A program made the position numbers and the translations under genes. Of a stretch of 64,000 bases of DNA, positions 4,767 through 12,886 are shown piece by piece. Position 1 is the stretch's first letter. Every line of letters starts with the position of its first letter. The stretch is from Comamonadaceae bacterium OS-1 (GTDB lineage Bacteria > Pseudomonadota > Gammaproteobacteria > Burkholderiales > Burkholderiaceae_C): assembly GCA_027923965.1 (NCBI GenBank), contig AP026969.1, positions 1,054,001-1,118,000 of the forward strand, written 5' to 3'. The notes under the pieces were generated by a model. It ran no database searches and was not told the origin of the DNA. It was given only the letters and a program-made list of their open reading frames with translations.

Positions 4767-6158
4767 ATGAAAAAACCAGTTTCCCCTTCTGCCAGCGACA
4801 ATCGCCAGCCCGCCACCGGCTTCGCCTACAGCCGTCCCTTCTTTGAAGAGCTCGTCGACAGCGCCCTGGCACATGCCAAAAAACTCGGTGCCACCAACGC
4901 CGGTGCCGAGGCGTCCGAGGGTTGCGGCCTGAGCGTCTCGGTGCGCAAGGGCGCGCTGGAAACGGTGGAACGCAACCGCGACAAATCGCTAGGCATCACC
5001 GTCTACCTGGGCAAGCGCCGGGGCAATGCCAGCACCTCCGACTTCTCCAAGGCCGCCATCCAGCAAACCGTGCAGGCGGCGTACGACATTGCCCGCTTCA
5101 CCGCCGAAGACCCGTTTGCCGGTTTGCCGGACGCCAAGAACATTGCCAAGCGCCAGGTCGATCTGGACCTGTTCCACCCCTGGGCCATCACCAGCGAAGA
5201 CGCGGCCCAGATCGCCATGGAATGCGAGGCTGCGGCCCTGCAGACCAGCAAGCACATCACCAACAGCGAAGGCGCGGGCGTGTCGGCCCAGCAGTCGCAC
5301 TTCTTCAGCGCCCACACCAACGGCTTTCGCGGCGGCTACGCCAGCTCGCGCCATTCCTTGTCGGTGGCCCCCATCGCGGGCAAGGGCAGCGGCATGCAGC
5401 GCGACTCGTGGTACAGCTCGATGCGCAGCGCCGAGGAACTGGCCTCGCCGCAAGCCGTGGGCCGCTACGCCGCCCAGCGCGCCCTGAGCCGCCTGAAGTC
5501 GCGCAAGATCCCCACGGTGGAATGCCCGGTGCTGTTCGAGTCACCGCTGGCCGCCGGGCTGCTGGGGGGCTTTGTGCAGGCCGTCAGCGGCGGTGCGCTG
5601 TACCGCAAGAGCACGTTTTTGCTGGACTCGATGGGCAAGCAGATCTTTCCCAAGCACATCCAGCTGCTGGAAGACCCGTTTGTGAAGCGCGGCAAAGGCA
5701 GCTCGCCGTTTGACGACGAAGGCGTTCGCGTCAAGGCCCGCACCGTGGTGGACGCAGGCCGCGTCGAAGGTTACTTTTTGAGCAGCTATTCGGCCCGCAA
5801 GCTGGGCATGCAAACCACCGGCAACGCAGGCGGCTCGCACAACCTGGTGCTGACTTCCAGCCGCACCCGTCCCGGCGACGACCTGGACGCGATGCTGAAG
5901 AAGTTGGGCACCGGCCTGTTCGTCATCGAGCTGATGGGCCAGGGCGTGAACTACGTGACCGGTGACTACTCGCGCGGTGCCAGCGGCTTCTGGGTGGAAA
6001 ACGGCGAAATCGCCTTCCCCGTGGAAGAGATCACCATCGCCGGCAATCTGAAAGACATGTTCAAGGGCATCCAGGCGATTGGCGCGGATACCTACAACTA
6101 TGGGGCCAAAACCGTGGGCTCCATTCTCATCAACAAGATGAAGGTGGCGGGGAGCTGA
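4767..6158 (+). CDS. pmbA: Metalloprotease PmbA/TldE
   Basis: A 463-residue TldE subunit, which works with TldD as a cytosolic zinc protease on unfolded peptides, microcin precursors and CcdA-type antitoxins. Family words visible are AGAEASEGCGLSVSVRKGALET near residue 45, the AYDIARFTAEDPFAGLPD stretch, and the C-terminal GMQTTGNAGGSHNLV and FVIELMGQGVNYVTGDYSRGASG. As usual for TldE, the HExxxH zinc motif of TldD is absent. ATG at 4767 follows an A/T-rich leader and precedes a variable, disordered N-terminus. tldD is not in the window. A strong hairpin with a T-run follows the stop. Confidence 0.93.
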   Translation: MKKPVSPSASDNRQPATGFAYSRPFFEELVDSALAHAKKLGATNAGAEASEGCGLSVSVRKGALETVERNRDKSLGITVYLGKRRGNASTSDFSKAAIQQTVQAAYDIARFTAEDPFAGLPDAKNIAKRQVDLDLFHPWAITSEDAAQIAMECEAAALQTSKHITNSEGAGVSAQQSHFFSAHTNGFRGGYASSRHSLSVAPIAGKGSGMQRDSWYSSMRSAEELASPQAVGRYAAQRALSRLKSRKIPTVECPVLFESPLAAGLLGGFVQAVSGGALYRKSTFLLDSMGKQIFPKHIQLLEDPFVKRGKGSSPFDDEGVRVKARTVVDAGRVEGYFLSSYSARKLGMQTTGNAGGSHNLVLTSSRTRPGDDLDAMLKKLGTGLFVIELMGQGVNYVTGDYSRGASGFWVENGEIAFPVEEITIAGNLKDMFKGIQAIGADTYNYGAKTVGSILINKMKVAGS

Positions 6159-6190
6159 TGTAAGCTTTTTAGGCCTCTCGCGCTGATTCC

Positions 6191-6238
6191 ATAAGCGCCA
6201 CCAGCTATTGAAATGATAGCTGGTGGCGTTTTTGCGTG
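6191..6238 (+). repeat. 48-bp hairpin repeat, left copy bracketing the PRTase island (also pmbA terminator)
   Basis: Reads ATAAGCGCCACCAGCTATTG, AAATGATAGC, TGGTGGCGTTTTTGCGTG. It forms a 12-bp stem (GCCACCAGCTAT with ATAGCTGGTGGC) followed by GTTTTTG, a good rho-independent terminator for pmbA. The left half (AGGCCTCTCGCGCTGATTCC from 6171) extends it to the full dispersed repeat. An almost identical copy lies at 8210-8257 with two mismatches, both in the loop region. Confidence 0.9.
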
Positions 6239-6263
6239 GGGCGCACTGCGATATGCTGCCAAT

Positions 6264-7049
6264 ATGTCAACTACTACTGCATTCAGCCATTCGCACCTGC
6301 GCCAGCATGGGTTCGGTGCGGATGTGGATATTCCATTCTCTGTGTTGAGTGACCTTGCCGTCCTGAAAGCACACAGAGACTACCAGGCTGCCAAAGCAGG
6401 AGATATTTCCGCAGCTATGAATCTGGTCTGGGATTTGGCTGCGATGTCTATCGTTGAATACACGCATCGGTTTCCATCCCACTGCATTTTTGTTGCGCCG
6501 CACGCCCAAGAGGCCAGTGGCGACAATGCGATTCCCCAGGTGCTAGCGGAGGTGTGCGCGTTGGTGAGAATGGCAACCGCCGACACTGACATTGTGCAGA
6601 CGACGCGGGTCTTTCACACAGGTGCAGATCCGATGGAACGCATGGCCTTGCGAGCGCAGTTCGAAGGTGCGGTGCTGGCACAGGGACAATATGTCTTGGT
6701 AGACGATGTGAGCAATATGGGTGGGACGCTGGCAGAATTGGCCAACTACATCTATTCCCACGGTGGATATGTCGTCGGTGTTATGGTGCTTGTGAATGCG
6801 GGCAGAAGCCCTCACTTAAAACCTGATGCAAAGTCCATTCGTAAATTAGAAACGAGGTACGGCCATGAAATCACCCAACTCTTCGGAATCGAACCCTCTG
6901 CCCTCACGGCCAATGAAGCCCATTACCTCATCGGTTTCAGAACAATTGACGAGATCAGAAATCGACTCGCTAAGGCAAGGCAAGAAACACATCTCCGACT
7001 GCGTTCAAAAGGTATTGGGTCCGAAGATCCGGGCCAGGCAGCTGGCTGA
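6264..7049 (+). CDS. Phosphoribosyltransferase-like protein of mobile-element type
   Basis: A 261-residue protein with a type-I PRTase core. The PRPP-binding loop is YVLVDDVSNMGGTLAELANY at about 140-160 (VLVDD followed by a GGT loop). An N-terminal LSDLAVLKAHRDYQAAKAGD segment and a C-terminal ALTANEAHYLIGFRTIDEIRNR segment resemble the PRTase-like domains I know from polyvalent proteins of phages and conjugative elements; that link is from memory of the motif pattern. The substrate is unknown. Base composition is clearly more AT-rich than the neighbours, the gene is bracketed by direct hairpin repeats and sits next to an IS30 element, so recent transfer is likely. ATG at 6264 is the first in-frame start that precedes the conserved region. 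Confidence 0.75.
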   Translation: MSTTTAFSHSHLRQHGFGADVDIPFSVLSDLAVLKAHRDYQAAKAGDISAAMNLVWDLAAMSIVEYTHRFPSHCIFVAPHAQEASGDNAIPQVLAEVCALVRMATADTDIVQTTRVFHTGADPMERMALRAQFEGAVLAQGQYVLVDDVSNMGGTLAELANYIYSHGGYVVGVMVLVNAGRSPHLKPDAKSIRKLETRYGHEITQLFGIEPSALTANEAHYLIGFRTIDEIRNRLAKARQETHLRLRSKGIGSEDPGQAAG

Positions 7050-7068
7050 CGCGGTGGTGTCTCACTAG
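6865..7068 (+). CDS. Small protein overlapping the 3' end of the PRTase gene in another frame
   Basis: A 67-residue ORF whose first 185 bases overlap the PRTase gene in a different frame; it ends 19 bases after it. The C-terminal half, LTRSEIDSLRQGKKHISDCV, looks like a real charged helical peptide rather than a shadow: it has an ExxxLR pattern and no GC-biased low-complexity run. In the same bases the PRTase frame encodes IDEIRNRLAKA, which also looks conserved, so both frames seem to be under protein-level constraint. The ATG lies inside PRTase codons, so translation by reinitiation or coupling would be needed. Function unknown. Confidence 0.5.
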   Translation: MKSPNSSESNPLPSRPMKPITSSVSEQLTRSEIDSLRQGKKHISDCVQKVLGPKIRARQLADAVVSH

Positions 7069-7089
7069 CGTTTCCTGCCTCCTGCGCCC

Positions 7090-7116
7090 GGCGGGTTCAA
7101 ATCTGAAGTGCAACAC
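7090..7116 (+). repeat. IS30-family left inverted repeat
   Basis: The left terminus runs from GGCGGGTTCAA to AAGTGCAACAC and matches the right terminus at 8176-8201 with two substitutions and one single-base gap. Confidence 0.85.
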
Positions 7117-7138
7117 CTTATTCAACTAAGGTGCAGAA

Positions 7139-8170
7139 ATGACAAAAGTCCCCCAGTACCAGCAACTTCAGTCGGACGAACGTATCGCGCCGGCGCAGTA
7201 CCGCGAGCAAGGCTTGGGCATTCGGGCCATTGCCCGACTGCTTCACCGCTCGCCTTCCACCATCAGCCGTGAGATCGAGCGCAATGCCCCGTTGCTCGCC
7301 TACAGCGGCACTTTTGCCCATCAGCGCTGTACCCGCAGGCGCAGACTCTGCCGCCCAGCCCCTAAACTTGCCCGCACGGGGGCCTTGTTTGCCCAGGTCT
7401 GCGTACTGCTCAAACGCAAATGGTCACCCGAGCAGATCTCCCTCCACTTAGCTCGGCAATCCCCTTCTGATTGGACCCAACGCGTGTCCTTTGAAACCAT
7501 CTACAACGCCATCTACGCCCAACCCCGAGGCGAGCTACGCAAAGACCTGATTGCCTGCTTGCGCCATGCACGCTCCAAACGCATGCCGCGCACCCGGGGC
7601 ATAGACCGCAAAGCCCGAAGCGCCGACATGCTCAGCATCCATGTTCGCCCACCCGAGGTCAACGATCGGCTGTTTCCCGGCCACTGGGAGGGGGACTTGA
7701 TCAAGGGCCGCGCTAACGCCAGTGCCGTAGGCACGCTGGTAGAGCGTTCCTCACGCTTATTGATTCTGGTGCACCTGCCGCACCCCAAACCCGCCAGTGC
7801 GGCCAATGTATTGCAGGCTTTCACAGACAAGCTGCGCTGCATTGCCCAGCCCATGCGCCAGAGCATGACGTATGACCAGGGCAGCGAGATGGCGCGCCAC
7901 AAGGAGCTCAGCGCCAACACCGGCATTGCGGTGTACTTCTGCGACCCCCACAGCCCTTGGCAGCGCGGCACCAACGAGAACACCAATGGCTTGGTGCGCC
8001 AGTACCTGCCCAAAGGCATGGATCTCTCAGATGTGAGCCAGGAGCAACTCGATGCCATTGCCGATGAGATCAACAACCGCCCCCGTAAGACATTGAATGC
8101 GTACTCGCCTATCGAGGCCTATCGCGACCTCTTGCTCAAACACCATCCCCAGCACGCTACCATTCAATGA
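7139..8170 (+). CDS. IS30-family transposase
   Basis: A 343-residue DDE transposase. The N-terminus carries the IS30 helix-turn-helix (GLGIRAIARLLHRSPSTISREIERN). The catalytic core has the first Asp in GHWEGDLIKG, the second in MTYDQGSEM, and the Glu in SPWQRGTNENTNGLVRQYLP, the canonical IS30 spacing with its conserved NG.RQ.LPKG tail. ATG at 7139 is 22 bases inside the left inverted repeat. The frame is intact, so the element may still be active. Confidence 0.95.
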   Translation: MTKVPQYQQLQSDERIAPAQYREQGLGIRAIARLLHRSPSTISREIERNAPLLAYSGTFAHQRCTRRRRLCRPAPKLARTGALFAQVCVLLKRKWSPEQISLHLARQSPSDWTQRVSFETIYNAIYAQPRGELRKDLIACLRHARSKRMPRTRGIDRKARSADMLSIHVRPPEVNDRLFPGHWEGDLIKGRANASAVGTLVERSSRLLILVHLPHPKPASAANVLQAFTDKLRCIAQPMRQSMTYDQGSEMARHKELSANTGIAVYFCDPHSPWQRGTNENTNGLVRQYLPKGMDLSDVSQEQLDAIADEINNRPRKTLNAYSPIEAYRDLLLKHHPQHATIQ

Positions 8171-8175
8171 TCCTT

Positions 8176-8201
8176 GTGTTGCACTTGGACTTGAATCCGC
8201 C
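8176..8201 (-). repeat. IS30-family right inverted repeat
   Basis: The right terminus reads GTGTTGCACTT ... TTGAATCCGCC, the inverted partner of 7090-7116, beginning five bases after the transposase stop codon. Confidence 0.85.
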
Positions 8202-8209
8202 CCCTTTGC

Positions 8210-8257
8210 ATAAGCGCCACCAGCTATTAAAATAATAGCTGGTGGCGTTTTTGCGTG
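8210..8257 (+). repeat. 48-bp hairpin repeat, right copy bracketing the PRTase island
   Basis: Identical to 6191-6238 except for two A-for-G changes near the loop. The changes turn the stem into a perfect 14-bp helix with an AAA loop (GCCACCAGCTATTA / TAATAGCTGGTGGC), again followed by GTTTTTGCGTG. It lacks the left half of the full dispersed repeat, starting abruptly at ATAAGCG. It lies between the IS30 element and the convergent dctP gene. Confidence 0.9.
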
Positions 8258-8272
8258 CGGGCCTGGGTTGGC

Positions 8273-9292
8273 TTACTTGCCGCGCTTCTTGGCCAGCTCG
8301 GCCTGCGTTTCCTGCCACAGCTCCATGCCCACATTGGTCGCAACCTGGGCATTGATCTTGGTGAGTTTGTCGCGCATGCGGGCGGTCTCGGCGGGGGCCA
8401 GTTCGTTGATTTGCATGCCTTTGGACTTCAGGTCGGCCAGGGCCTTGGCCGCTTCATCGCGGGTGTCCTTGCGTTCGAAGTCGCGGCTGGCTTTGGCGGC
8501 GTCGAGCAGCACTTTTTGCTCGTCCTTGCTCAAGCCGTCCCACCACTTCTTGCTGGCCAGCACGATCCAGGGGCTGTAGACGTGGTTGGTCACGCTGAGG
8601 TACTTTTGCACCTCGTAGAACTTGCTGGAGACGATGGTGTTGAACGGGTTTTCCTGGCCGTCCACGGTCTTGGTTTCCAGGGCGCTGAAGAGTTCGCTAA
8701 ACGGCAGGGGGATGGCGTTGGCACCCAGCGATTTGAAGCTGTTGAGGAAGACCTCGTTTTGCATCACCCGCAGTTTCACGCCGTCCATGTCTTCCAGCTT
8801 GGTGATGGGGCGCTTGTTGTTGGTCAGGTTGCGGAAGCCGTTTTCCCAGTAGACCAGGCCAACCAGGCCTTTTTCTTGCAGCTTGGCCATGACTTTCTGG
8901 CCGATGGGGCCGTCCAGCACGGCATCGGCTTCGGCGGCGTTGTTGAACAGGAAGGGTGTGTCCCACAGCGCCATTTCCTTGGTGATGCCGACCAGGGTGG
9001 CGGTGGAGCCGACCATCATTTCCTGCGCGCCGCCCACCAGGGCCTGCTGCATTTGGGTGTCGGGGCCGAGGGCGGCGGCACCGATGGCGCGCAGCTTCAT
9101 CTTGCCTCCCGAGGCCTTGTCTACCGCATCGGCAAACACCTTGGACGCGCGGCCCTGGTTGCTTTGCTCATTCAGGCCGTAGCCAAAGCGGATCAGGCGG
9201 GGTTTGATGTCTTGTGCCAGTGCGCTGGTGGCAGCACCGAGGGTGAGGGCGGCCAAAGTGGCCAGGGCGGTGCGGCGAAGAAGGGTTTGCAT
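8273..9292 (-). CDS. dctP: TRAP transporter substrate-binding protein DctP
   Basis: A 339-residue periplasmic receptor of a tripartite ATP-independent transporter. A Sec signal peptide with cleavage after ATSALA-Q (about residue 26) is clear. The DctP fold is marked by the VFADAVDKASGGKMKLRAIG segment, LWDTPFLF, the ligand-binding region GVKLRVMQNEVFLNSFKSLG (conserved Arg), and GQENPFNTIVSSKFYEVQKY. It is the last gene of gntK-dctQ-dctM-dctP, 21 bases after dctM. With gluconokinase at the head of the unit the ligand is probably gluconate or a related sugar acid; that is inference. Confidence 0.93.
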   Translation of the reverse strand: MQTLLRRTALATLAALTLGAATSALAQDIKPRLIRFGYGLNEQSNQGRASKVFADAVDKASGGKMKLRAIGAAALGPDTQMQQALVGGAQEMMVGSTATLVGITKEMALWDTPFLFNNAAEADAVLDGPIGQKVMAKLQEKGLVGLVYWENGFRNLTNNKRPITKLEDMDGVKLRVMQNEVFLNSFKSLGANAIPLPFSELFSALETKTVDGQENPFNTIVSSKFYEVQKYLSVTNHVYSPWIVLASKKWWDGLSKDEQKVLLDAAKASRDFERKDTRDEAAKALADLKSKGMQINELAPAETARMRDKLTKINAQVATNVGMELWQETQAELAKKRGK

Positions 9293-9313
9293 GGTGTCTC
9301 CTAGGGTAAAAAA

Positions 9314-10606
9314 TTAACGCATCCACGCCACCGGCGCGATGACGATCTGCGGGAAGATGACGAACAAAATCAAAATCAGCGTGTAGGTAATGAGGAAGGG
9401 GTTCACGCCCTTGATCACCGTGTGCATGGGCAGGCGGCCCACCCCGGCAATCACGTTGAGCACGGTGCCCACCGGCGGGGTGATCAGGCCGATGGCACCG
9501 TTGAGCACAAACATCAGGCCGAAATACACCGGGTCGATGCCCGCCTTCACGGCGATGGGCAGCATTACCGGGGCGAAGATCAGGATGGTGGGGGTCAGGT
9601 CCAGTGCGGTGCCGATCAGCACCAACACAATCATCATCACCGCCATCAGCAGGCGCGGGCTGTCCACCAGCGGGCCGAGCCAGTTCGATAGGGTGCTGGG
9701 CAGGTCAGCCAGGGTGATCATGTAGCTGGCCACGGCGGCTCCGGCGCACAGGAACATCACCACCGAGGTGGTCTTGGCGGCCCGCACCAGTACGGCATAC
9801 AGCTCGGGCACACGCATTTCGCGGTGGATGAACAGGGCCACGATGAGGGCGTAGAACGCGGCCACCACGGCGGCTTCGGTGGGGGTGAAGAAGCCGGTCT
9901 TCATGCCGCCGATGATGATGATGGGCATCAGCAGCGCCCAAAAGGCTTTGCCGGTGGCGCGCACGCGCTCGGCCAGGGGCAGCGGCTGGCCCATGGGCAG
10001 GTCGATCTTGCGCAGCACCAGTTTCCAGGCCACGATCAGGCCTACGCCCATGATCAGGCCAGGCACGATGCCCGAGACGAACAGGGCGGAGATGGAGGTG
10101 TTGGTGGTCACGCCGTAGATCACAAACGGCATCGACGGCGGAATGATGGGGGCGATGATGCCGCCCGCGGCCAGCAGACCTGCCGATGCGGGCAGCGGGT
10201 AGCCGTTGTTGCGCATCATGGGCAGCAGGATGGTGGCCAGCGCGGCGGTGTCGGCCAGGGCCGAGCCGCTCATGCTGGCCATCAGCACCGCAGCGCCAAT
10301 CGCCACATAGCCCAGGCCGCCGCGGATGTGGCCCACCCAGGCTTGGGCCATGGCGATGATGCGGCGACTGATGCCACCCGAGTTCATCAGCTCGCCCGCC
10401 AGGATGAAAAACGGCACGGCCAGCAGCGGAAAGCTGTCTACCCCGGCCACCAGGTTCTGCGCCAGCAGCTGGGTATCCCAAAACCCCAGGACCCAGGCCA
10501 TACCGGCCCCGGTAAGCACCAGCGCCAGCGCCATGTTCATGCCGATACCCATCAGCAGCAACATGCCTGCCGAGAAAACGACGAAAGCTTGACCTTCTGC
10601 GGACAT
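9314..10606 (-). CDS. dctM: TRAP transporter large permease DctM
   Basis: A 430-residue integral membrane protein, the sodium-coupled transport subunit of the TRAP system. A dozen or so hydrophobic segments are visible. Family words are LLAVPFFILAGELMNSGGIS near residue 55, MASMSGSALADTAALATILLP (the conserved SGSA.AD.AA loop), PIIPPSMPFVIYG, and NGAIGLITPPVGTVLNVIAG near the C-terminus. ATG at 10606 gives the usual DctM length; the frame is open upstream but that sequence overlaps dctQ. The start is 5 bases after the dctQ stop, so the two subunits are translated together. Confidence 0.95.
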   Translation of the reverse strand: MSAEGQAFVVFSAGMLLLMGIGMNMALALVLTGAGMAWVLGFWDTQLLAQNLVAGVDSFPLLAVPFFILAGELMNSGGISRRIIAMAQAWVGHIRGGLGYVAIGAAVLMASMSGSALADTAALATILLPMMRNNGYPLPASAGLLAAGGIIAPIIPPSMPFVIYGVTTNTSISALFVSGIVPGLIMGVGLIVAWKLVLRKIDLPMGQPLPLAERVRATGKAFWALLMPIIIIGGMKTGFFTPTEAAVVAAFYALIVALFIHREMRVPELYAVLVRAAKTTSVVMFLCAGAAVASYMITLADLPSTLSNWLGPLVDSPRLLMAVMMIVLVLIGTALDLTPTILIFAPVMLPIAVKAGIDPVYFGLMFVLNGAIGLITPPVGTVLNVIAGVGRLPMHTVIKGVNPFLITYTLILILFVIFPQIVIAPVAWMR

Positions 10607-10611
10607 AGCGA

Positions 10612-11121
10612 TTACTCCATCTCGACGCTGTGACCGAGGTCCAGCGTCTGGTTGCGAACCAGCTCCCACAGCGCCATCAGTCCGATGGTGGCAGAGCACA
10701 AAAAGGCGGGCAGGGGCAGCAGCGCGCTGGAATAGCCCAGCACCACCGAATGGCTGCCCAGGCCCACGACCACCTGCAGCCAGGCCCCCCAGGCCAGGAA
10801 GGCGCAGCCCAGCACCACCAGCACCCGGATCAGCACCGCCATGGCGGTGAGCATGGCGGGCTTGTCGCGCAGGGCCAGCAGCAGGCTGGTGAAGGCCATG
10901 TGCTCGCCCATGGGGTAGGCGGCGGTGGCACCGATAAACACCATCCACACAAACAGCAGGCGCGAGAGTTCTTCGCTGGCGGCTACGCCGCTGCCAAAGC
11001 CGTAGCGCAGCACTACGTTGATGAACACCGACGAGGCCATGACGGCCAGGCACAGCGCCATGGCGGCATTGGCCAGGCGCACCAGCTTCGGTGGGACGGG
11101 TGGGGTTTCAGAGTTTTGCAT
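10612..11121 (-). CDS. dctQ: TRAP transporter small permease DctQ
   Basis: A 169-residue four-helix membrane protein that docks on DctM. Helix 1 (MALCLAVMASSVFINVVLRY) and the conserved SEELSRLLFVWMVFIGAT segment of helix 2 identify the family, and GEHMAFTSL follows as usual. It overlaps the 3' end of gntK by 14 bases and is followed by dctM after 5 bases, which shows tight operon packing. Confidence 0.93.
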   Translation of the reverse strand: MQNSETPPVPPKLVRLANAAMALCLAVMASSVFINVVLRYGFGSGVAASEELSRLLFVWMVFIGATAAYPMGEHMAFTSLLLALRDKPAMLTAMAVLIRVLVVLGCAFLAWGAWLQVVVGLGSHSVVLGYSSALLPLPAFLCSATIGLMALWELVRNQTLDLGHSVEME

Positions 11122-11617
11122 CGGGGGTCTCCTGCGTCCAGCGGACGGCGTGGGGGGTAAGTTCGGCCAGGGTCTGGGTGGCATCCAGCGTCAGCACGCC
11201 GGGCTCGCCCTGCGGGTCCTCGAGCGTGGCGAACTGGCTGTCGACGAGGTTCGCCTGGAAGTAATGACCACCCGCGCGCTGCGCCACGCGGGTGCGGGCG
11301 GCATCGATGCTGAGGGCCAGGTGCACAAAGCGCAGGCCGGGCAGGGCGGCGCGCAACTGGTCGCGGTAGGTCTTTTTCAGGGCCGAGCAGGTCAGCACCG
11401 CACCACCGGGGTGGCCTTGCAACTCGGCCCCCAGCAGCGCCAGCCAGCCCACGCGGTCGGCATCGACCAGCGGAATGCCGGCGCGCATTTTTTCCACGTT
11501 GGCGGCGGGGTGGAAATCGTCCCCCTCCACCAACGGCCAGCCCAGCGCCAGGGCGACTGCGTGGCCCAAGCTGGATTTGCCGCATCCGGCAACGCCCATA
11601 ACAACCAGAGAAACCAT
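11108..11617 (-). CDS. gntK: Gluconokinase
   Basis: A 169-residue cytosolic kinase that phosphorylates D-gluconate to 6-phosphogluconate for the Entner-Doudoroff or pentose-phosphate pathway. Walker A is VMGVAGCGKSSLG at residues 7-19, followed by the substrate loop EGDDFHPAANVEKMRAGIPL and VLTCSALKKTYRDQLR, all diagnostic for GntK. ATG at 11617 places the P-loop at the normal distance; it lies four bases from an operator palindrome (11621-11634), so repressor binding would directly block the start region. First gene of the TRAP operon. Confidence 0.95.
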   Translation of the reverse strand: MVSLVVMGVAGCGKSSLGHAVALALGWPLVEGDDFHPAANVEKMRAGIPLVDADRVGWLALLGAELQGHPGGAVLTCSALKKTYRDQLRAALPGLRFVHLALSIDAARTRVAQRAGGHYFQANLVDSQFATLEDPQGEPGVLTLDATQTLAELTPHAVRWTQETPDAKL

Positions 11618-11620
11618 GTT

Positions 11621-11634
11621 GGACAGCGCTATCC
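11621..11634. promoter_or_regulatory. LacI-type operator, copy next to gntK
   Basis: GGACAGCGCTATCC is a 14-bp palindrome with one mismatch and the central GC typical of LacI-family sites. It begins four bases upstream of the gntK start codon. A second identical site is at 11711-11724, 90 bp away. Confidence 0.75.
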
Positions 11635-11710
11635 CAAAAAGGTTGAAAAATGCAGGCCACCACGTGAACGCAGGGCCTGCGGAAAATCCAGGTTTGCGGT
11701 TTGCAAATTT

Positions 11711-11724
11711 GGACAGCGCTATCC
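11711..11724. promoter_or_regulatory. LacI-type operator, copy next to the repressor gene
   Basis: A second exact GGACAGCGCTATCC, with similar flanks (a T-rich left side and an AAA right side). Two identical sites in the 224-bp gap between gntK and the divergent LacI gene, 90 bp apart, suggest co-operative or looping repression of both promoters. Confidence 0.75.
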
Positions 11725-11841
11725 TAAAGGCGATGCAGGCCATTCGCGCTCAGGGTTTTCACCAGCCTCAGCCGTTTATTTGGGGGCGTGTGGAAGGCGT
11801 TCCAGCGGTGGGTGGCGTGGTTAGAATCGCGTCCAAATCCC

Positions 11842-12876
11842 ATGGACAGCCCCTCCAACCCTCCTCTGCGCCGCCGCGCCACGGGCCGCGCCACCCTCAG
11901 CGATGTGGCTGTGGCCGCGGGTGTCAGTGCCATCACGGCATCCCGGGCACTGCGCGGCGCGCGGGCGGTAGACCCACTGCTGGTGGAGCGCGTGCAGGTG
12001 GCGGCGCAGCAACTGGGCTACGTGCCCGACCCCGCCGCCCGCGCCTTGGCCTCTGCCCGCAGCACACACGTGGCGGTGCTGATTCCGTTGCTGTCCAACG
12101 CCTTGTTTGTGGAGCTGCTGGAGGCCGTACAGAACACCCTGGCCCCGGCGGGCTACCAGACGCTGATGGGGGTCACGCACTACCAGCCCGCCGAAGAAGA
12201 TGCCCTCTTGCGCAGCTACCTGGCGCACCGCCCGGCGGGCCTGCTGGTCACTGGCCTGGACCGCAGCGATGCCGCCCGCCAGATGATTGCGGCCAGCGGC
12301 GTGCCCTGCGTGCATTTGATGGAGATCGCGCCCACCCCCGGGGTGTACGGCGTGGGCTTGTCGCAAATGGACGCGGCACGCACCCTCACCGAGCATTTGC
12401 TGCAGCGGGGCCGCCGCCGCATCGCCTACGTGGCGGGCCAACTCGACCCGCGGGTGATGCAGCGGGCCGAGGGCTACCGGGCGGCCTTGCGCGCAGCCGG
12501 TTGCTACGACCCGCAGCTGGAGGTGCTGGACCCAGCGCCCACCTCGATGGCATTGGGCGCGCGTTTGCTGGAAGACCTGCTGGCGCGCCACCCCGACGTG
12601 GATGCGGTGTTTTTCTGCAACGACGACCTGGCCCAGGGCGGGCTGCTGGCGGCGCTGCGTTTGCAGGTGGCCGTGCCACAGCGGATTGCGGTGGTGGGTT
12701 TCAATGATTTGGCGGGCAGCGACCAGATGCTGCCGCCACTGACCACCATCCGCACCCCACGCGCCGAGATTGGCACCCAGGCCGCCCGCATGCTGCTGGC
12801 CCTGATGCGCGGCGAAACCGTGCCGCAGAGCACGGTAGACCTCGGTTTTGAATTGGTGGTGCGCGGCAGCAGCTGA
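11842..12876 (+). CDS. LacI-family repressor of the gluconate/TRAP operon (GntR-like)
   Basis: A 344-residue regulator divergent from gntK. The helix-turn-helix is ATLSDVAVAAGVSAITASRA at about residues 18-37, with hinge VQVAAQQLGYVPDPAARALAS. The sugar-binding core has VAVLIPLLSNALFVELLEAV and the C-terminal FFCNDDLAQGGLLAAL and VGFNDLAGSDQMLPPLTTI words. The arrangement suggests it represses gntK-dctQMP and itself through the two identical palindromes in the intergenic gap and is released by gluconate or 6-phosphogluconate; ligand identity is inference. ATG at 11842 is chosen over the longer frame because the basic linker before the HTH starts here. Confidence 0.9.
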   Translation: MDSPSNPPLRRRATGRATLSDVAVAAGVSAITASRALRGARAVDPLLVERVQVAAQQLGYVPDPAARALASARSTHVAVLIPLLSNALFVELLEAVQNTLAPAGYQTLMGVTHYQPAEEDALLRSYLAHRPAGLLVTGLDRSDAARQMIAASGVPCVHLMEIAPTPGVYGVGLSQMDAARTLTEHLLQRGRRRIAYVAGQLDPRVMQRAEGYRAALRAAGCYDPQLEVLDPAPTSMALGARLLEDLLARHPDVDAVFFCNDDLAQGGLLAALRLQVAVPQRIAVVGFNDLAGSDQMLPPLTTIRTPRAEIGTQAARMLLALMRGETVPQSTVDLGFELVVRGSS

Positions 12877-12886
12877 CGGTCAAGCG

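Follow-up and report, generated by a model that had tools for sequence, protein, structure and literature searches.

Introduction

The closest described relatives of the gene considered here, a phosphoribosyltransferase (PRTase) gene on the chromosome of Comamonadaceae bacterium OS-1, are kfrC of the IncP-1 and IncU plasmids and the PRTase domains of polyvalent proteins. According to the work on RA3 (PMC8124265), overproduction of its KfrC slowed growth, whereas a variant with an alanine-substituted DDT motif and a C-terminal fragment did not, and a kfrC1-249 fragment could not be cloned without rearrangements. The PRTase domains of polyvalent proteins are described by Iyer et al. 2017 (PMC5512222) as ComF-like domains with a DD motif that occur in solo and fused forms in mobile elements. 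Our subject is a gene of this kind in a stretch of 64,000 nucleotides (nt; AP026969.1 positions 1,054,001-1,118,000), referred to throughout as the window, together with a small open reading frame (ORF) that overlaps its 3' end. We find that the 3' quarter of the PRTase gene very probably encodes, as judged by comparison of homologues, another small protein that is translated on its own from the +1 frame. The features concerned are the following.

6264..7049, + strand: PRTase gene of the KfrC/polyvalent-protein kind, 261 amino acids, with the VDDV...GGT motif that binds phosphoribosyl pyrophosphate (PRPP) (Pfam, phrog, AlphaFold2, Foldseek)
6852..6860 (approximate), + strand: Shine-Dalgarno-like site of the nested gene, GAGGT, 6 nt before the ATG (start-site survey)
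6865..7068, + strand: nested gene, 67 amino acids, in the +1 frame relative to the PRTase gene, its stop 19 nt beyond the PRTase stop

Annotation pipelines discard nested genes that lie on the same strand as their host and, to our knowledge, bacteria have few long ones that are strongly supported by evolutionary evidence. Each element of the present case has been described before, namely nested genes, PRTases of the KfrC type and toxin-antitoxin pairs; their combination and its spread appear to be new. The literature searched contained no report of a nested gene in kfrC or in PRTases, and queries on nested antitoxins and on the hairpin described below returned no report bearing on this case; PMC2701414 does not mention 'phosphoribosyl'. 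The small overlapping ORF, listed in a first-pass annotation of this DNA as part of the cargo of a cassette, is the most important part of the locus.

Coding in two frames

The larger gene matches Pfam PF00156 below the cut-off (E 1.6e-4) and phrog_22413, a family of unassigned function, at E 2.3e-65. Its AlphaFold2 model (pLDDT 89) has a high-confidence PRTase fold, PRTase structures are among its top PDB matches in Foldseek, with ComF as the best (E 2.1e-5), and both residues of the catalytic DD motif, D147 and D148, are invariant in 60 sequences.

In a tblastn search, every close locus has a relative of the small ORF at the corresponding position. On translation, the +1 frame is conserved and in many loci extends beyond the PRTase stop with conserved residues. 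A profile of the nested ORF matches 17 of 17 close PRTase loci (15 of which were in the alignment that built the profile), each of the 11 more distant loci with a PRTase (E 8.6e-9 to 0.011) and all eight plasmid and phage loci tested (seven plasmids, one phage; E 9.6e-9 to 7.8e-4). The proteins have the common core L-T-x-S-E-I-x-x-L-R.

The pattern of nucleotide change carries the marks of a second frame. Across 14 chromosomal PRTase genes (the codon alignment left out L021, L026 and L032, in which the PRTase frame is broken), identity at four-fold sites is 1586/5119 (0.31) upstream and rises to 822/1644 (0.50) in the overlap. Likewise, in 11 kfrC genes, a set without the near duplicates L092 and L101, the 25-codon windows that cover the nested ORF have four-fold identities of 0.58-0.79, and those elsewhere, on both sides, of 0.28-0.54; the highest values outside the overlap belong to the two windows adjoining the nested ORF and to the last, thinly covered one. 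Differences among the kfrC genes by codon position are 0.219/0.130/0.558 before the nested ORF, 0.311/0.219/0.290 over it and 0.311/0.212/0.560 after it. The loss of third-position variation of kfrC over the overlap is as expected under nesting, these being the second positions of the nested frame, and the variation shifts to the third positions of the nested frame. Of 40 nested starts, 35 have a Shine-Dalgarno-like site ahead of them; among 4075 background ATGs the number is 961 (24%). The +2 frame holds 2-6 stops in the overlap in 14 of 14 genes. Synonymous shuffling gave a product of probabilities of 10^-15.7 for the open +1 frame over 14 genes, on an assumption of independence that fails; in this test four of the 14 genes count as 'not open', because their nested ORF stops short of the end of the PRTase, and three have no ATG at the tested column.

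The nested protein is modelled as a flexible N-terminus and one helix, residues 30-65 (pTM 0.42). The nested ORF of the window has no Pfam match, and those among 21 members of the alignment are scattered and weak (best E 0.01). The phage collection held no match for the nested kfrC-type protein at E 0.1, though the profile finds a nested ORF in Moraxella phage Mcat8 (L096). The gene of this phage that carries the nested ORF is annotated as a coat protein and ends in a PRTase domain. By these comparisons both frames are under coding selection, and the association is an old one that spans chromosomes, IncP-1 and IncU plasmids and one phage. Because the same nested gene lies within related plasmid and phage genes, it probably works with the PRTase.

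Distribution and decay of the two genes

The PRTase has 804 relatives at E 0.001 among 5.8 billion proteins, with a close clade (53-62% identity) in Desulfobacterota, a Verrucomicrobiota-type metagenome-assembled genome, Betaproteobacteria and Gammaproteobacteria, the organisms being those given in record titles. Matches occur in 16 of 399 genomes of the family at E 0.001, remnants and generic PRTases included, in 4 of 369 of the class and in 4 of 398 of the phylum; the three counts used different thresholds and include the window's own genome. At E 1e-5 the PRTase matches 156 plasmid and 2 phage records, where relatives of about 30-36% identity are KfrC and similar plasmid proteins. Viral contigs held one weak relative only, over residues 162-203. 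The PRTase gene of the window lies between pmbA and dctP with only an IS30 element beside it, and thus outside any phage or conjugative element. The set has many members that are solo and chromosomal, and we do not take its location as excluding membership of the KfrC/polyvalent family. We read the cargo as one copy, gained by horizontal transfer, of a mobile module that is widespread.

At eight loci the nested ORF is intact and the PRTase truncated or broken: it is reduced to its 3' end at L014, the second copy of L020, L114, L116 and L120, and it has stops or a frameshift at L021, L026 and L032, some of which could be explained by errors in draft or metagenomic sequence. An intact PRTase with a broken nested ORF was not seen among the loci inspected. 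Relatives of the nested gene also occur on their own. Five Aeromonas miniplasmids (2.6-3.7 kb) carry one without an annotated PRTase (E 1.6e-16 to 1.6e-13), alone between other genes and unannotated in the gene tables, which are incomplete. On these MobV plasmids (L103-L107; for example L106:1103-1348), the small LTPQEIEALREDM-type ORF, which is related to the nested gene of kfrC, starts at or overlaps the stop of the upstream gene, directly before a convergent mobV.

Toxin-antitoxin families are found near the module at L020, L023, L025, L026 and L031. The module or its remnant is in or next to clusters of surface-polysaccharide genes at L005, L014, L027 and L028, with compatible genes at L020 and L021; as the 20 proteins scanned were chosen by eye, this describes the surroundings and does not measure enrichment. 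At L023, from Limnohabitans, the neighbours of the module are RHH/ParE and HigB/HTH pairs, and a ATTGGGGTCAGATCCCAAT-type palindrome occurs seven times in 7 kb. The stretches L023:4000-11000 and L026:4000-12717 contain the PRTase module together with toxin-antitoxin pairs and other genes, spaced by about seven copies of an AATTGGGGTCAGATCCCAATT palindrome, an arrangement that looks like an integrase-free cassette array.

What the nested protein may do

By analogy with its plasmid relative KfrC, the PRTase, KfrC-like and probably growth-inhibiting, would use PRPP and would inhibit growth when left unchecked. The nested protein, with its flexible tail and one long helix, would be made from the PRTase mRNA by way of a Shine-Dalgarno site of its own, and may bind the PRTase and restrain or direct it, as an antitoxin does. 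Nesting would guarantee that both genes travel together and are produced from one message. We put forward an antitoxin role toward the PRTase tentatively, as rather doubtful. It is also conceivable, though on present evidence somewhat unlikely, that the two make up a module of addiction or conflict whose antitoxin (or obligatory partner) is encoded out of frame inside the toxin gene, and that this dual-coded architecture underlies the broad-host-range plasmids that bear KfrC, the MuF-type polyvalent proteins of phages and chromosomal islands alike. The experiments on RA3 touch on this. In the IncU kfrC gene of L100 (355 codons, like that of RA3) the nested ORF spans about codons 206-258, and therefore a kfrC1-249 fragment would also cut the nested ORF. 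The trouble in cloning it fits a restraining nested protein and is no proof of one.

Could the overlap be something other than a second gene, or the nested gene something other than a partner of the PRTase? A signal in the RNA or DNA, such as a structured mRNA or a recombination site over which the +1 ORF stays untranslated, would suit the 3' part of the gene, which is strikingly conserved as DNA across phyla. Such a signal is nevertheless very improbable, since the variation shifts to the third positions of the nested frame, the ORF extends beyond the PRTase stop in many homologues with conserved residues, and relatives of the nested gene stand alone; moreover, the consensus RNA structure is weak (2 of 13 pairs covarying, -7.15 kcal/mol), no attC-like pair is present, and a known RNA was rejected for want of any Rfam match in 6000-8500. 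Programmed frameshifting, by which the +1 frame would be an alternative PRTase C-terminus and not a separate protein, finds an echo in four metagenomic proteins (P0161, P0163, P0164, P0169) in which internal deletions, recognized by eye, join the PRTase N-terminus in frame to the nested sequence. We hold it highly unlikely, given the Shine-Dalgarno-like sites at nested starts, the stand-alone copies and an in-frame stop that comes 5-9 codons ahead of the nested start in 13 of 17 recounted rows with an ATG, which leaves little room for a shift. The main rival accepts the nested gene and denies the partnership: the protein would be an independent small mobile-element protein, for example an anti-defence or conjugation-related one, that merely shares DNA with the PRTase. 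Its relatives on MobV miniplasmids without an annotated PRTase speak for this, as does the position of kfrC beside kfrB and traM in most plasmids examined, and we consider it a serious possibility, somewhat short of an even chance. The nested ORF is, however, found in 28 of 28 chromosomal PRTase loci examined with the profile, which suggests a link, and the miniplasmid copies could be orphan partners. We favour a PRTase with a nested partner.

Several observations weigh against this reading of a dual-coded gene with a nested partner. The nested protein is predicted from sequence; the sequences compared are related, so that the dual-coding counts are not independent; conservation of the nested start site is partly a by-product of conserved PRTase residues; and a Shine-Dalgarno-like site is lacking in the giant polyvalent genes L008, L010 and L012 as well as in L025 and L085. 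The bias toward PRTase loss is weak evidence, as the PRTase is an approximately fourfold larger target, and at three loci, L015 (= L113), L018 and L019, both genes are damaged with parts lost. The stand-alone miniplasmid relatives suggest a role beyond restraint of the PRTase. The kfrC1-249 result is equally explained by loss of the C-terminal domain of KfrC, the context in which the authors place it (PMC8124265). PADLOC gives no match for either the PRTase or the nested protein, and membership of a known defence family was rejected on this ground.

The nested gene is of consequence for work on kfrC. Knock-outs and truncations of kfrC have been interpreted as those of a gene for a single protein, and any deletion of kfrC removes the nested gene too. 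If it is true that the nested protein restrains the PRTase, the locus would be a clean and testable example of a toxin and its antitoxin on one stretch of DNA, and would offer a way into the function of plasmid and phage PRTases, which are so far unexplained.

Insertion at the pmbA/dctP site

The surrounding features of the locus are the following.

4767..6158, + strand: pmbA (TldE/PmbA metallopeptidase), left host gene (Pfam PmbA_TldD domains, best E 6.6e-66)
6170..6241 (start approximate), + strand: left copy of the dispersed repeat, a pmbA terminator-like hairpin with its upstream half (single orthologous hairpin after pmbA in L034-L037; repeat family)
7069..7089 (about), + strand: first part of the right repeat copy, target-site CCC included (alignment to the left copy and the repeat family)
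7090..8201, + strand: IS30-family element within the right repeat copy, transposase at 7139-8170 (NCBIfam transpos_IS30, E 9.9e-95)
8202..8260, + strand: remainder of the right repeat copy, hairpin included (repeat comparison)
8273..9292, - strand: dctP (TRAP transporter binding protein), right host gene (Pfam DctP, E 2.5e-89)

The first-pass annotation had described an AT-rich cargo of a PRTase gene and a small overlapping ORF between two 48-bp hairpins that differ at two positions, with an IS30 element at 7090-8201 plus one CCC, and in this it was right. The cargo (6264-7049 and 6865-7068) measures about 0.83 kb from the PRTase start at 6264 to the small-ORF stop at 7068, with a GC content of 0.533 against 0.636 for the window; the stretch 6239-7089, at 0.539, falls between the 1st (0.530) and 5th (0.559) percentile of the window's 850-nt stretches. 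Only 22 nt (6242-6263) separate the left hairpin from the PRTase start. Over 55 nt, the hairpins at 6187-6241 and 8206-8260 share 93% identity, and the two differences in the 48 nt of the first-pass annotation are both A/G changes opposite T, with the stem still paired (by eye). Compared flank against flank they score 92, and no control pair in the window, of 404, scores higher than 72. Within the 5.12-Mb genome the long-arm form is confined to these two places; matches to the short AGCTAT...ATAGC core number 88 on the forward and 83 on the reverse strand genome-wide, as against 1 and 0 for a reversed-pattern control (palindromic sites being scored on both strands).

One detail of the earlier description does not stand, namely that the right copy starts abruptly in mid-element. 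The dispersed repeat exceeds the hairpin: in most of 30 loci (L054-L083), in either orientation, a first stem-loop (GCCTCTAGCGCTTATTCCATAAGCGC-like) lies before the AGCTAT hairpin, and other copies start about 30 nt earlier than the hairpin with this part. With the IS30 element removed, the right copy has the first part as well (GCCTCCTGCGCCC...TTTGCATAAGCGC); its start appears abrupt because IS30 inserted there and split the repeat. The element is flanked by CCC at 7087-7089 and 8202-8204, a target duplication, and on this arrangement it inserted later, into the right repeat copy. As a mobiliser of the cargo it was rejected, for it is present in one copy in the genome and sits inside the right repeat. 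The genome has a single Y1_Tnp (RAYT-like) protein (G000:C1:161429-161755, L122), which may be a mobiliser of the AGCTAT repeats. Three hairpins with the common loop AGCTATTTATTCAATAGC lie about 3 kb apart at G000:C1:1233384, 1236402 and 1239298 (L109). Hairpins as general cassette brackets were rejected, as these three enclose no obvious module (ORFs listed by length, no family search).

The state of the site before insertion can be seen in relatives. A PmbA search covered eight same-genus genomes, the window's own included; six others have a full-length pmbA, and the seventh (G399) has a weak, partial pmbA-like match only. In L034, L036 and L037, pmbA is followed by one hairpin and dctP, with no insert; in L035 by one hairpin and then a different gene; and in L038 and L039 no such hairpin directly follows pmbA (the hairpins of L034 and L035 were identified by eye, not by pattern). 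The PRTase is absent from five of five same-genus genomes examined for it. Because relatives have pmbA and a single hairpin without the cargo, the cargo has been inserted here, and one of the two hairpins is additional. The proposal that a cassette had entered the pmbA/dctP interval with duplication of the hairpin is thus supported by the empty sites of L034, L036 and L037, which have the one hairpin it predicts, and two hairpins without the cargo were not seen among the same-genus genomes. The TRAP-transporter block itself (window 8273-12880) looks inserted: in L035 and L039 pmbA apparently adjoins a relative of the 12887-14563 gene (by eye).

The hairpin is not a property of the module. When the 400-nt flanks were compared at 16 PRTase loci (the window included; L022 and L014 left out), a flanking direct repeat scoring at least 34 was present at seven, all different in kind save L023 and L026, and none at the other nine. 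The repeats clearly exceed same-locus controls only in the window and at L025 (heptamer repeats), L024 (about 170 nt) and L031 (43 nt); L023, L026 and L030 exceed theirs weakly, and the repeat of L031 is, by eye, the end of an antitoxin-like gene plus a fragment of another. Since the flanking repeats differ in kind among loci, the hairpin is the local site's, and the module settles in places rich in repeats and in toxin-antitoxin genes. Of the earlier interpretation, insertion with a duplicated hairpin is retained, and the idea of a new repeat-associated module type defined by its hairpin is not supported, as elsewhere the cargo occurs without this hairpin. An integron cassette was rejected, there being no RYYYAAC...GTTRRRY pair 40-160 nt apart in the module (simple attC pattern only), and none of six matches to the integron integrase TIGR02249 in the genome was over the cut-off.

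How, then, did the bracket arise? Recombination with incoming DNA that already carried the cargo beside a pmbA-type terminator, rather than duplication by transposition, would account for hairpin halves that are nearly identical (46/48) next to upstream halves that are clearly more diverged, for arms of the genus's pmbA terminator in both copies, and for a cargo that contains no transposase or integrase. No donor with the cargo and this hairpin was found, however, and the sole close homologue in the same family (G385/L005) is without the hairpin; we rate such homologous capture at slightly under an even chance. Accidental bracketing by two independent terminators might be entertained for a genome in which the AGCTAT hairpin family is common, yet it is most improbable, as the long-arm form is confined to these two places, relatives have one hairpin, and the pair outscores all 404 controls.

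Comparison with known systems

The IS30 element resembles its family in its transposase match and CCC target duplication, and here made an ordinary insertion that split the right repeat without mobilising the cargo. The AGCTAT repeat is, like REP-like dispersed palindromes, intergenic, present in many copies and hairpin-forming; it differs from them in its length of about 60-75 nt with two stem-loops. With type II toxin-antitoxin modules the PRTase module has in common that it is a small mobile two-gene unit of patchy distribution with toxin-antitoxin families nearby in five loci, and differs in that the putative antitoxin gene would be nested out of frame in the putative toxin gene. With the PRTases of polyvalent proteins it shares the DD motif, the solo and fused occurrence in mobile elements and the resemblance to ComF, the best Foldseek match here; the word 'overlapping' is absent from the main text of that paper (PMC5512222), and the nested gene is apparently not described there. 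KfrC of the IncP-1 and IncU plasmids differs in that kfrC is longer (355-449 codons) with the nested ORF in the gene interior, and in that it is borne by plasmids in a kfr cluster whereas the window copy is chromosomal and solo. It nevertheless belongs to the same PRTase family, with about 30-36% identity and profile E values of 4.4e-39 to 2.4e-42 at seven plasmid loci, and carries a nested +1 ORF at the corresponding place.

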